Shown here: positions 27,603-58,738 of the stretch, one piece after another | How positions within the stretch are numbered: position 1 is the stretch's first letter | How the letters are laid out: the number at the start of each line of letters is the position of its first letter | DNA from: Saprospiraceae bacterium | Lineage (GTDB): Bacteria > Bacteroidota > Bacteroidia > Chitinophagales > Saprospiraceae | Direction of reading: 5' to 3' | DNA: 64,000 nt | Assembly (NCBI GenBank): GCA_020630435.1 | Contig: JAHDBJ010000014.1 | Location: 1 to 64,000, forward strand | Notes under the pieces: generated by a model | Databases searched by the model: none | Seen by the model: the letters and a program-made list of their open reading frames with translations, nothing else | What the model was told of the DNA's origin: nothing | Made by a program: the position numbers and the translations under genes

Positions 27603-27844
27603 AGTGTTCAATTTTATAAGATGATTTCCTACTCTATTTAAGAAAAGGCTTTTCGGAATCCGCCTAGATATTTTAACCTTTAGGTTCAATAGTACGTTAA
27701 GAGTGATTCGAATCGTTTGGATATGAAATAAGCGAATATTAATATCCTTATATACCGATTAAGAACACTAGCCTGAAATATGTAATAGTCTTTTTGTATT
27801 TTTTTTAAAAAATATTTTTAAAGGAGATTATTTTATAACGTTCT

Positions 27845-30108: not shown

Positions 30109-30687
30109 CTAAAAGGAAATTGAAAGTTTAACTATTGACAAAGATAGTTTTTATATCTTGATATCTAATATCAATACAGAGAAGTTGTTTAAATCAAATT
30201 ATTTTAATACTTTTTGTATTTATTTTTTAAATCAATTTGTTTTAATTAATTTAAAAGTGTATTTTGTTGAAAAAAAAAGTTATAAACAATTTTTTCCACA
30301 TTGTTGGTAAATTTGTTTATAATTTCAACAGTTTATGTTATAAATATAGAATCTGTCTTTTTTTATTTTAACAGTTTAGTTTTTTGTATACAAAAACAGG
30401 GGTTTTGAAAAAATATTTAAATGAATTATAAAAATAAATATATATAAGTTACTTTTCTTTTGACTTTAAATTTAACTGTTTTGTTGAAAAAAAAATGATT
30501 TCTAAACATATTTATCAACATTAAAAATCAAGTTAAAAGAAACCTTTATTTTTTATTCAACATTCAATCAACTATTTTTGTAATCCTACATTTTAAGGTT
30601 ATTGAAATAAGTTCTAAATATTCAATAACTTTTAAATAAAACTAAACAAAAAGAAAATTATCTAACACAATAAGCGTCCTTACTGTC
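30109..30687. other. 579-bp very AT-rich region upstream of dnaB with a direct repeat and DnaA-box-like sites
   Basis: No gene was seen. The sequence TTTTGTTG followed by nine A occurs at 30262 and 30479. In both places TAAACA and then a near-DnaA box follow: TTTTCCACA at 30292-30300 and TTATCAACA at 30512-30520, each one base from TTATCCACA. The repeat unit is about 41-44 bp. The composition would suit duplex melting, but an origin is not established. Confidence 0.4.
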
Positions 30688-40996: not shown

Positions 40997-41291
40997 AATT
41001 ATAAAAATTGATTTTACAAAAGTATCTTTTTTTAAACAACTTCATCTATATCGAAATTGTTAATTTTTAAACAATTGCAATACAAGTAAACGTATAACGT
41101 TTTAGAAGTAAGTCATCTGATTAGATTTAGGAAAGAATGATATAAAAGATTTAAACTAAATTTGAAACAAGGATGTTAAATGGGAGGGAACATTATTTTT
41201 TTTAAATAAAATGTGACCTTGAGATGATTTTACTGTCATAAAACCGGAAAACGACGAATTACAGTTATTACAAAACTACAAAAGCATACTC
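40997..41291. other. Intergenic region upstream of a small ORF
   Basis: No gene was seen. The stretch TTAAACAACTTCATC at 41032-41046 matches the right end of the MITE-like repeat at 49394-49411, but no left end is present. Confidence 0.35.
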
Positions 41292-48595: not shown

Positions 48596-49114
48596 TTATT
48601 GATTAGAAAGTTCGTCATCTTCAGGTTCAAGCATTGGAGCTAAAACATTACCTTCTAGAACTACCATTGTCATCAGTGGCCATGTATTCGCAATAATTGA
48701 GAAGGGTTTATCTTGTCTTCCTTCTTTTCCTTTGCTATCGAATATTACTTCAATGCTTCCTTTTTCTCCGACAGCAACAGGGGCTTTTGTCCATTTTGGG
48801 ACTGCACAGCCACAAGAGGATTTAATGTCCTTTATGACCAAGGGAACAACACCTGTATTTTTAAATTTATAGGTATAGGATACTTTTTTTCCTTCTTGGA
48901 TATTGCCAAAGTCATATGTCCATGTATCGAACTCCATTTTTGCAACATTAACAGTATCTGTGGGTGTCATATTTTTTGGTGTTCGGATAGCTTTATTATT
49001 ATCTGTTGTAAGATCTATATCGGTATCGACAACTTCAAGCGTGTTATCTCCAGACTTGCTATTTTGACAAGCAAGTATAAATAGTGAGAATATGATGACA
49101 ATGTATTTTCCCAT
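48596..49114 (-). CDS. DUF1573 lipoprotein
   Basis: This 172-residue protein has a signal peptide with lipobox LFILAC (Cys near 16), an acidic linker, and an ASPM/Hydin-like Ig domain (DUF1573): WTYDFGNIQEGKKVSYTYKFKNTG, split here by position about 65-90, IKDIKSSCGCAVPKW and VIFDSKGKEGRQDKP. The CGC pair is typical. The surface or periplasmic function is unknown. It precedes yajC by 22 bp. The start was moved from a TTG at 49135 to ATG 49114. Confidence 0.88.
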   Translation of the reverse strand: MGKYIVIIFSLFILACQNSKSGDNTLEVVDTDIDLTTDNNKAIRTPKNMTPTDTVNVAKMEFDTWTYDFGNIQEGKKVSYTYKFKNTGVVPLVIKDIKSSCGCAVPKWTKAPVAVGEKGSIEVIFDSKGKEGRQDKPFSIIANTWPLMTMVVLEGNVLAPMLEPEDDELSNQ

Positions 49115-49210
49115 TATTTTATTTTTTGATTGCAAAAGTAGTAATTAAGACATAAAGAGATTAAAAATCAAGTATAAAAATGGAATCTAAGTAGAATTGT
49201 AGCTTTAACA

Positions 49211-49252
49211 AAAAAAGAAAAGCAATAAGTTATTGGCTAACCTATTGCTTTT
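49211..49252 (-). terminator. Terminator downstream of ompA
   Basis: AAAAGCAATA (49252-49243) and TATTGCTTTT (49227-49218) pair on the leftward transcript, followed by a T-rich run. The MITE-like copy sits between the ompA stop and this hairpin. It may act in both directions. Confidence 0.7.
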
Positions 49253-49261
49253 TTATATATC

Positions 49262-49408
49262 GAAGCTGTTAAAAAATAGAATGATGAATTATTTACAAGT
49301 CATTGTATCTCAATATTTCAGCTAATTCTTTTCACCGTAACTAAGGCTACGAAAAAAGAATGGAGCTTTATCTTGAAATACAAGCACTTATCATTATTAA
49401 ACAACTTC
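49262..49408 (+). mobile_element. MITE-like repeat, copy A (147 bp)
   Basis: Imperfect 16-bp terminal inverted repeats (GAAGCTGTTAAAAAAT against GAAGTTGTTTAATAAT, 13 of 16 match) bound the element. A direct ATC duplication flanks it at 49259-49261 and 49409-49411. A 130-bp stretch from 49262 matches 58483-58612 on the other strand with 3 differences. An internal hairpin spans 49320-49367. There is no ORF. It sits between ompA and its terminator. Confidence 0.75.
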
Positions 49409-49425
49409 ATCAAATACTATAAAAA

Positions 49426-50784
49426 TTATTTCAAATACAAATCAAATTCAACTCTACGATTCGCTTGTCGACCATCTTTATATTTATTATCAGCAATAGG
49501 GCGAGTTTCACCAAAACCTGTATAGCTAATACGATTTGGGTTAATACCTTTTGCTACAATATAGTCATAGCATGCTTTAGCTCTACGTTCTGAAAGCTGT
49601 TGATTTGATTCAGAGCTTCCTACACTGTCAGTATGTCCGCCGATACTCAAATTATAATCTTTATAACGTGTCATTATATCAACAATTTTATCCAATATGC
49701 CATGAGATGTAGAGCGAATCGTTGACTTTGCAGTTTCAAATTCTACTGCATAACGTGCTTCTTCTAAAGTTGCTTTATCTTCTTCCTTAAGCTCAGGACA
49801 ACCACTGTTAGATGCAACACCAGCAGTTGTTGGACATTTATCATCCGCATCAGCTACACCATCACCATCTGTATCAGGGCATCCATTAAATCGTGCTAAG
49901 CCTGCTGTTCTTGGACACCTATCATTTTTATCATCTACACCGTCACCATCTGTATCAACAATTTTAACTTCCTCTTCTTCCTCCTCTTCTTCAGGACAGC
50001 CATTATTAGCAGCAATTCCTGCAATATTAGGACAATCATCCTTAGAATTAATAATTCCATCATTATCAGAATCAGGACAACCATTAAATTTTGCTAAGCC
50101 TTTATCTCTAGGGCATTGGTCTATGTCATCCGTTACACCATCACCGTCAATATCTGTGGGTTCTACAACTACTTTAGGTTCTTTTTTCTTAACACCACCA
50201 TCATTATGGATTAAAAAAAGTAGCCCTGCTGTACCGTGCAGGTTATTACGATTATCAGATAGGGAAAAGCGATACTCTGTTTGAAGTTGCAAGTAAAAAT
50301 TACGAGATAGTTTTAAATTGAAACCTATTCCTGCTGGAAATTGAATGTCAAGATCATCATCTTGAAGCAACATCCCTCCAACACCTGCAAAAAGATAAGG
50401 ATTGAAAAAAGTTGTAGGTTTGAAATATTTAAATTGAGCAACAAGATCAAGATTTACAAATGTTCTTTTTTTATTTAAATTAGTAGCATTTAATTCAGGA
50501 GTTGCACCTAAAGAATCTAATGTTCCTATTCTTAGTGGTACTCCGATATTAATAAATTCATTAAGATGTCTAAAATAGCCGACTTCGACACCGCCACCCC
50601 TTTTATCAATAGCATCGGAAAAGTTGTAATCAGTATCAATATATCCACTCCAAACTTTTGGGGAATAATAATCTGTAGCAAGATATTTGAATGTAATCCC
50701 ATGTTTTGCTCCAGAATGTTGTGCTAAGATAATACTTGAACAACATAGGATTGAGATTACGAAGAGCAATATTTTTTTTTGCAT
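49426..50784 (-). CDS. OmpA-family outer-membrane protein with thrombospondin type 3 repeats
   Basis: This 452-residue protein has a signal peptide (about 1-21), an N-terminal beta-barrel domain (about 25-195), then calcium-binding TSP3 repeats (about 205-330, four DxDGDGV...CP units such as DTDGDGVDDKNDRCP) with an acidic EEEEEEEE spacer. The C-terminal OmpA domain (about 340-452) has GGHTDSVGSSESNQQLSERR for peptidoglycan binding and GFGETRPIADNKYKDGRQANRRVEF. It should link the outer membrane to the wall. Its 3' end is followed by the MITE-like copy and the terminator. Confidence 0.95.
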   Translation of the reverse strand: MQKKILLFVISILCCSSIILAQHSGAKHGITFKYLATDYYSPKVWSGYIDTDYNFSDAIDKRGGGVEVGYFRHLNEFINIGVPLRIGTLDSLGATPELNATNLNKKRTFVNLDLVAQFKYFKPTTFFNPYLFAGVGGMLLQDDDLDIQFPAGIGFNLKLSRNFYLQLQTEYRFSLSDNRNNLHGTAGLLFLIHNDGGVKKKEPKVVVEPTDIDGDGVTDDIDQCPRDKGLAKFNGCPDSDNDGIINSKDDCPNIAGIAANNGCPEEEEEEEEVKIVDTDGDGVDDKNDRCPRTAGLARFNGCPDTDGDGVADADDKCPTTAGVASNSGCPELKEEDKATLEEARYAVEFETAKSTIRSTSHGILDKIVDIMTRYKDYNLSIGGHTDSVGSSESNQQLSERRAKACYDYIVAKGINPNRISYTGFGETRPIADNKYKDGRQANRRVEFDLYLK

Positions 50785-58421: not shown

Positions 58422-58449
58422 TTTTCATGACTTGTTGTATTGGTTCTTT

Positions 58450-58612
58450 GAAGTTGTTTAATAATGAAGGTTGATTTTAATTATAAGTGCTTGTATTTCA
58501 AGATAAAGCTCCATTCTTTTTTTGTAGCCTTAGTTACAGTGAAAAGAATTAACTGAAATATTGAGATACAATGACTTGTAAATAATTCATCATTCTATTT
58601 TTTAACAGCTTC
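58450..58612 (-). mobile_element. MITE-like repeat, copy B (163 bp)
   Basis: This is the same element as at 49262, read leftward, with 127 of 130 bases identical plus a 16-bp insertion (58467-58482) near the right end. The TIRs match (GAAGCTGTT and GAAGTTGTT ends). A TTT duplication flanks it (58447-58449 and 58613-58615). The three substitutions all preserve the internal hairpin. It lies between the AAA and glutathione-peroxidase starts. Confidence 0.75.
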
Positions 58613-58738
58613 TTTATAAGTAAAGGTACAAAAATGTTAAACATAATATTTTTATTTAACAATAAAAAAACAGTTTGATTCAAAGAATTAAAAATACTTT
58701 CTTGGCACATTATTAAAATAATCTGTATTTTTACAAAA

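Follow-up and report, generated by a model that had tools for sequence, protein, structure and literature searches.

A MITE lineage of the Saprospiraceae with IS5-type ends and an internal hairpin kept across genera on one strand

Here we report a family of short mobile elements, found in a Saprospiraceae genome and its relatives, whose interior forms a hairpin that is strongly kept across genera on one strand, and whose resident copies within single genomes change nearly freely. The best reading of the element is a type-II-like MITE of 163 bp, non-coding, with a long imperfect hairpin interior containing internal loops. We consider it fairly probable that this MITE is moved in trans by an IS5-family transposase recognizing GAAGYTGTTTAA-type ends and making 3-bp duplications, and that its hairpin is selected on one strand (the R strand), most likely as RNA, in the source copies that transpose. 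MITE interiors tend to be regarded as filler. In this family, structure maintains the interior even as resident copies decay, which makes it possible to investigate if an RNA fold that helps a non-coding transposon to spread can come under selection.

The window analyzed, a stretch of 64 kb (G000:C49:1-64000) from a genome of 5.12 Mb in 70 contigs, holds two copies of the element in opposite orientations, with the ends GAAGCTGTT and GAAGTTGTT. Copy A (49262..49408; R strand = minus) has a length of 147 bp compared with 163 bp for the full-length element, 16 bp being missing near its right end, and copy B (58450..58612; R strand = plus) is full length. Copy A lies between the target-site duplications ATC at 49259..49261 and 49409..49411, and copy B between TTT at 58447..58449 and 58613..58615. 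The terminal inverted repeats of copy A occupy 49262..49273 (GAAGCTGTTAAA, plus strand) and 49397..49408 (GAAGTTGTTTAA on the minus strand), and those of copy B 58450..58461 (GAAGTTGTTTAA, plus strand) and 58601..58612 (GAAGCTGTTAAA on the minus strand). The structured cores, as matched by the covariance model, span 49292..49393 on the minus strand in copy A (92.4 bits) and 58481..58582 on the plus strand in copy B (89.7 bits); the internal hairpin arms in copy A are ATTCTTTT/AAAAGAAT. No ORF of at least 80 codons overlaps either copy. Elsewhere in the window, two more GAAGTTGTTTAA words stand unpaired, at 30181 and, on the other strand, at 41032-41043.

A sequence-only reading of this DNA had described two nearly identical copies with perfect 3-bp duplications, GAAG(C/T)TGTT ends and an internal hairpin, and each of these features was confirmed: the copies differ at three aligned positions, both duplications are perfect, the ends are present in A and B, and the minus strand of copy A, its R strand, folds at -43.9 kcal/mol (z = -6.92), as compared with -27.2 kcal/mol (z = -2.75) for the plus strand. 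The same reading had held that all three changes preserve pairing and had taken this as a sign of selection on the structure. Pairing is indeed preserved on the plus strand of copy A, but on the minus strand, which folds best, the change at 49322 replaces a G-C pair with an A-C mismatch. The C-G to U-A exchange was confirmed; it is found in copy B (L008) and again in L033 and L035. As one of the three changes breaks its pair on the best-folding strand, structural selection does not follow from them.

The element belongs to a large repeat family. A genome-wide search, as had been proposed, returned at least 41 matches at 85-100% identity, the number being a lower bound because 40 of 156 first candidates were scored; copy numbers in other genomes are likewise lower bounds, with 8 to 40 candidates scored per genome in element or model searches. 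With so many matches at different sites and with different duplications, a chance repeat or an assembly duplicate is ruled out. Among the 41 extracted copies, the 3-bp target duplication is exact in 31, agrees at two of three bases in 7, and at one of three in 3, two of which have ends that could not be fixed; GAAGYTGTTTAA or a near variant stands at both ends in most of them. In this set, L017 was omitted because L012 already includes it as a tandem neighbor; for L012b and L030, the ends were placed by hand and are uncertain. In a second genome, G087, the duplication is exact in 21 of 29 copies, one of 30 loci having been dropped because the element runs off it. The family thereby combines the marks of a MITE, namely a short length (163 bp), many copies, the lack of coding sequence, terminal inverted repeats, and a target duplication of fixed length, and the transposition suggested from copies A and B is backed by copy number, ends, duplications, and an unoccupied orthologous locus. 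Shorter derivatives with the same ends, of 37, 42, 64, 78, 78, and 82 bp, were found at six loci examined, with an exact duplication in four. The two shortest lie on contigs C9 (L053:797-833, 37 bp), where the 3-bp duplication is still there, and C18 (L054:817-858, 42 bp), where there is no duplication and the flanks prolong the palindrome by 7 bp. At L012:1473-1769 (C59), two MITE copies stand in head-to-tail tandem with a common junction, the second without one end.

The unoccupied locus was found in G001, the one further genome of this genus among the relatives searched. Copy A lies among three genes presumably encoding OmpA-like, DUF1573-like, and YajC-like proteins, as named from their sequences, and contig C207 of G001 carries the same three genes in order, with about 67% DNA identity where the DNA aligns. 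The gap between the listed ORFs is 34 bp in G001 versus 290 bp here; since start codons were chosen mechanically in both genomes and the gap here without copy A would still be about 140 bp, the site is empty at the level of the locus and not of the base. The hairpin model has no match in the 3601 bases of this syntenic locus and a single match elsewhere in G001. The check for empty sites, which the sequence-only reading had suggested for sister strains, came out in favor of insertion at the one syntenic locus tested in this genome of the same genus.

All 41 own copies are outside ORFs of at least 80 codons, in gaps that are co-directional in 25 cases, divergent in 14, and convergent in 2. These proportions resemble those of the intergenic DNA of the window (50% co-directional, 46% divergent, and 4% convergent), so that no positional preference is visible. 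For the analysis of genomic setting, 41 of 65 own-genome model matches were kept, since the remainder repeat these copies as read on their weaker strand, apart from one additional weak match; across genomes, 93 of 104 matches were used, 19 of them situated at contig edges and one within an ORF. Orientation towards the neighboring genes is unbiased (++ 14 and -- 11 here; 23 and 16 in the cross-genome set), so no effect on neighbors is visible. A regulator of neighboring genes with a fixed orientation was also considered and rejected, since co-directional gaps taken alone show no bias; an apparent excess of downstream genes on the R strand (28 of 41; 60 of 83) is caused by divergent gaps, which make up 46% of the intergenic DNA of the window.

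The ends of the MITE point to the IS5 family. A relative, G036, has a full-length transposase gene assigned to this family by NCBIfam NF033580 (133 bits; cut-off 110) and flanked by the ends GAGGCTGTTCAAAAATAGAATG and GAGGCTGTTTAAAAATGATTTG. Its left end equals the MITE end GAAGCTGTTTAAAAATAGAATGATG at 22 of the first 25 bases, as counted by eye; one end of the IS is thus similar to that of the MITE over approximately 25 bp, and the other over the terminal repeat only. The genome of the window has remnants of such a gene: C66 holds part of the transposase N-terminus (82% identity), and C46 and C57 hold parts of the C-terminus (73 and 67% identity), with the ends GAAATTGTTTAAAAAGTC and GAAGTTGTTCAAAAATGATTTG. 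Eleven contig ends were examined, chosen for a nearby end motif; seven of these contigs (C15, C23, C27, C33, C46, C47, and C57) stop inside same-ended elements, and one (C21) inside a MITE copy. One type of contig end runs GAAGTTGTTTAAAAAGTC..CTCAAAAGAGAG..TTGCAAAAGC, and in G038 it leads into a degraded IS5-like transposase gene. A transposase with matching ends, for which the sequence-only reading had proposed a search, is therefore found in relatives such as G036, whereas the assembly of this genome yielded only remnants and contig ends and no intact gene with matching ends. None of the IS copies examined has a 3-bp duplication that could be verified, their flanks being either truncated at contig ends or mismatched. 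From the ends we infer that the MITE would be mobilized in trans by an IS5-family transposase; none of the IS loci screened with the hairpin model (L174-L180) matches the interior.

Other candidate sources were set aside. The transposases detected here by PF01609 (IS5-type in C40, IS982 in C53, and ISAs1 in C36) have ends that differ from those of the MITE. Origin of the MITE as an internal-deletion derivative of the IS was rejected, as the IS loci L174-L180 gave no match to the hairpin model and are seen to have only the ends in common with the MITE. An exact search among the genome contigs for the end of one collapsed element returned nothing. Concerning carriage by phages or plasmids, two exact patterns had no match in viral contigs, and one 163-bp MITE copy had none in phage and plasmid collections. 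Three contigs end in the same element, GAAGTTGTTTAAAAAGTCTGAATGAAAACTAGGCAAGAATTG (C33:1-53, C47:1-53, and C46:131184-131237), which probably represents a further collapsed, multicopy transposon sharing these ends.

Within genomes, the hairpin changes close to neutrally, with at most a weak constraint. Compared with their consensus, the 41 own copies have 128 distinct substitutions, 36 of which keep a pair, 59 break one, and 33 fall on unpaired positions; random placement of the same 128 changes gives 33.4, 65.4 +- 3.4, and 29.2, respectively (P = 0.045 for so few breaks). In a shuffle control, 95.3% of cells are paired in the actual copies versus 94.6% after shuffling (none of 1000 shuffles as high). 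Pair-keeping double changes fill 21 cells versus 11.4 in shuffles (1 of 1000 as high), but 12 of the 21 represent one subfamily change, and counted as distinct events they number 7 versus 5.2 (195 of 1000 as high). The 78 events in G087 comprise 25 that keep pairs, 38 that break them, and 15 at unpaired positions, with 20.0, 40.3, and 17.7 expected (P = 0.017 for keeping and 0.26 for breaking), and include 8 distinct compensated changes. Strand asymmetry within genomes is weak, with single changes creating G-U versus A-C in a ratio of 29 to 22 here and 18 to 11 in G087.

The opposite holds across genera. We aligned 20 diverged cores (alignment A1), chosen by hand for diversity from different genera and subfamilies; ten of them (L127, L134, L136, L137, L145, L154, L159, L164, L165, and L166) came from a pattern search, L154 being also the BLAST match L074, and three further elements (L078, L116, and L129) were folded but left out because of degeneration or a nested insertion. 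RNAalifold predicted 37 pairs, and for 26 of them at least one sequence has both partners changed; 92.4% of the 722 cells are paired. The compensated cells number 93; shuffles give 25.7, and slid controls never exceed 27. Under a null model, in which a fully paired ancestor evolved along the fitted tree without pair constraint, 200 runs gave 62.8 +- 4.7% paired cells, and compensated cells numbered 25.3 +- 5.4, never more than 42. The mean pairwise identity is 0.70 in the inner hairpin versus 0.61 in the outer stem; as the search pattern fixes most of one inner arm, this inner-arm identity arises in part by selection of sequences, and the outer helix (21 pairs) is untouched by the pattern. The random pair breaking in further copies that had been named as an argument against selection on structure is nearly what the resident copies show, and the cross-genus cores show the reverse: the proposed selection on structure is favored by 93 compensated cells versus about 25 across genera, and not by copies A and B or by the resident copies.

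The conservation is also asymmetric between the strands. On the R strand, G-U wobble is tolerated, and A-C mismatches, which are the mirror image of such wobble, are purged: in A1, G-U fills 98 cells and A-C 9, with G-U exceeding A-C in 19 of the 20 sequences, whereas the null model with the same starting wobble pairs gives 111 and 56. Deriving the A1 structure from the R strand biases these counts towards G-U; the folding comparison is free of that bias, and in 22 of 23 elements it gives the R strand a better fold than the opposite strand. Columns 47-68 form U-G in 14 of the 20 cores, U-A in 6, and C-G in none, and columns 48-66 form U-G in 13 and U-A in 4 and are unpaired in 3. By eye, internal loops recur across genera, namely GC/UG in the outer stem and GA/GA in the inner stem of many members, the latter being absent from the members in this genome. 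On account of the G-U/A-C asymmetry, the folding of the R strand, columns 47-68, and the recurrent internal loops, folding of a single strand, be it RNA or single-stranded DNA, fits better than copying of the arms at the DNA level, and the hairpin probably matters to the element as the MITE spreads.

By BLAST, 9 of 100 genomes, counting the present one, contain copies; the core pattern occurs in 47 stretches in named records, all labelled as Saprospiraceae, Chitinophagales, or Bacteroidetes MAGs; and the core covariance model matched 50 of 198 related genomes at E <=0.001, again with this one, 47 of them in the same family and 3 in two other families of the order. In a phylum-wide sample of 395 genomes, four match at E <=1e-5, namely this genome, one of the same family, and two in another family of the class. 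Among 26 loci fetched from the model search, the flanks could be viewed in 19, the other 7 being too near contig ends. The matches in this other family of the class, L276, L278, and L280 (47.5-54.5 bits), have GAAG-type ends around the same kind of hairpin, in L276 on one side only. Around the conserved core, the ends vary (GAAGTTGTTTAAAAAGT, GAGGTAGTTTAAAGTT, GAACTGGTTTAAACTT, and GAAGTGATTTAAAAAC), most of them being variants of a single end, which may have diverged together with their IS. In a single case, L159, the ends are wholly different (24 bp, GAGTCTGTCTTCCTTCTATTTTTG), with no visible duplication. These observations admit a further, tentative interpretation, that of a structured RNA travelling as a MITE: the hairpin might be older than its ends and kept for selfish spread through many Saprospiraceae genera and two further families of the order, and also, judging from weak matches, through a family belonging to a different order; its wobble pairs and loops would let the RNA fold well without making the DNA a perfect palindrome, and L159 looks as if the core had been re-housed.

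Some members carry additional sequence. In L084 (1501-1607 and downstream) and L096 of G050 and in L078 of G017, a stretch is inserted in one hairpin arm, containing in G050 two small palindromes, TCGAGTACGATAGTACTCGA and AACCGCAAAAGCGGTT. In several genomes, a small G+C-rich stretch lies inside the element near the hairpin arm (L116 at 1532-1654, L118, L120, L129, and L147), and it is often palindromic, of the CCTGCC..GGCAGG type.

In the mechanism that we favor, an IS5-family transposase would recognize GAAGYTGTTTAA-type ends, move the MITE in trans, and leave 3-bp duplications, and selection would act on the source copies that keep transposing, each resident copy decaying nearly freely. Copies giving rise to later copies would have to keep the fold, and selection would hence operate during spread. 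The R strand would fold most likely as a stretch of RNA within transcripts running through the element; we tentatively consider such readthrough likeliest because of the lack of orientation bias and of a promoter of sigma-70 type in copy A, a scan for this type having found none inside and 3 sites in the region around it, with 3.3 expected. The gain from the fold can only be guessed, and may be a lower cost of insertion or protection of the RNA or DNA of the element. Copy A contains no intrinsic terminator, a scan of 49000-49600 giving one stem outside of it: a terminator-like stem with a T run at 49218-49252 on the minus strand, between copy A and the DUF1573-like gene. As for a known RNA family, neither copy matches Rfam at gathering score, and five loci with family members gave 6 matches at E <=5, all below gathering scores.

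The strongest rival for the compensated changes is template switching between the arms in replication (quasi-palindrome correction), by which a palindromic MITE would keep its pairing with no structural selection; this may act as well, but as the explanation of the hairpin we find it rather doubtful. It is a published mechanism that can create and maintain hairpins and make compensated changes (PMC8794818), and it would suit both the almost unconstrained change of resident copies here and in G087 and the 42-bp derivative, whose 7-bp palindromic flanks and lack of a duplication are as arm copying would make. Correction of one arm by the other, however, should erase wobble pairs and loops, yet the U-G columns 47-68 and 48-66 and the loops persist, and it offers no reason for G-U to stay near the unconstrained level (98 versus 111) while A-C drops from 56 to 9. 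The strand asymmetry fits any single-stranded form, and selection could instead favor the hairpin of the R strand as single-stranded DNA, as might occur for instance on a lagging strand or in an intermediate of transposition, with which the absence of an orientation bias towards genes also agrees. We regard this as unlikely, given ends and duplications that we take, from what is known of IS5, to be those of a DDE element acting on double-stranded ends; moreover, G-T pairs stabilize DNA hairpins less than G-U pairs do in RNA.

It is most improbable that each copy serves a host function such as the processing or stability of the mRNA of a neighboring gene. The location of all 41 own copies between ORFs would suit such a role, and the ERIC and NEMIS repeats are described as acting on mRNA (PMC2229807), but the unbiased orientation, the position classes equal to the intergenic background of the window, the near-neutral decay of copies, and the lack of a hairpin-model match at the syntenic locus of G001 all argue against it. 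Selection of the fold in transposing source copies, with RNA as its likeliest form, remains our preferred reading.

MITEs with RNA structure are already known, and for this lineage we found no account among the papers listed in literature searches, judged by titles and the beginnings of abstracts; a survey of conserved MITEs might list it. The ends of the Correia/NEMIS repeats of Neisseria differ from those of this MITE. Folded transcripts of MITEs are treated in reviews (PMC2229807, PMC10969869), and according to the former the Correia/NEMIS repeats resemble our element in being short and mobile, and their transcript has been proposed to form a fold that RNase III cleaves; they differ in their interior and in the IHF site of their longer form, and the passages of that review on them describe no core conserved across bacterial families. 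The CIR repeats of Caulobacter and Brucella are likewise intergenic, with a proposed RNA structure conserved between genera, but form a two-arm structure with a GANTC motif and are only partly MITE-like, as summarized in the same source (PMC2229807). Within the Bacteroidota, MITEs with IS5-type ends are known from Porphyromonas, where BrickBuilt and other P. gingivalis MITEs share with our element ends similar to those of resident IS5-family elements and the lack of a transposase remnant; unlike it, they have terminal inverted repeats such as GAGACCTTCGCA and 23-nt tandem repeats inside, and no conserved hairpin is described in the sections of that report devoted to them (PMC4596501). MITEAba12 of Acinetobacter is similar in that its movement by a coresident IS with the same ends was inferred and that it is found across a family, and is described as differing in its 113-bp length, 9-bp duplications, and weak predicted folding (PMC6382973).

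Because selection on structure and template switching both make compensated changes, the 50 matched genomes among the 198 related ones are useful as a test set for distinguishing RNA-structure selection from template-switch correction. Apart from the MITE copies, the window has a match to the Rfam DUF805b RNA (RF02914, 42.9 bits) at 27626-27666 on the minus strand.
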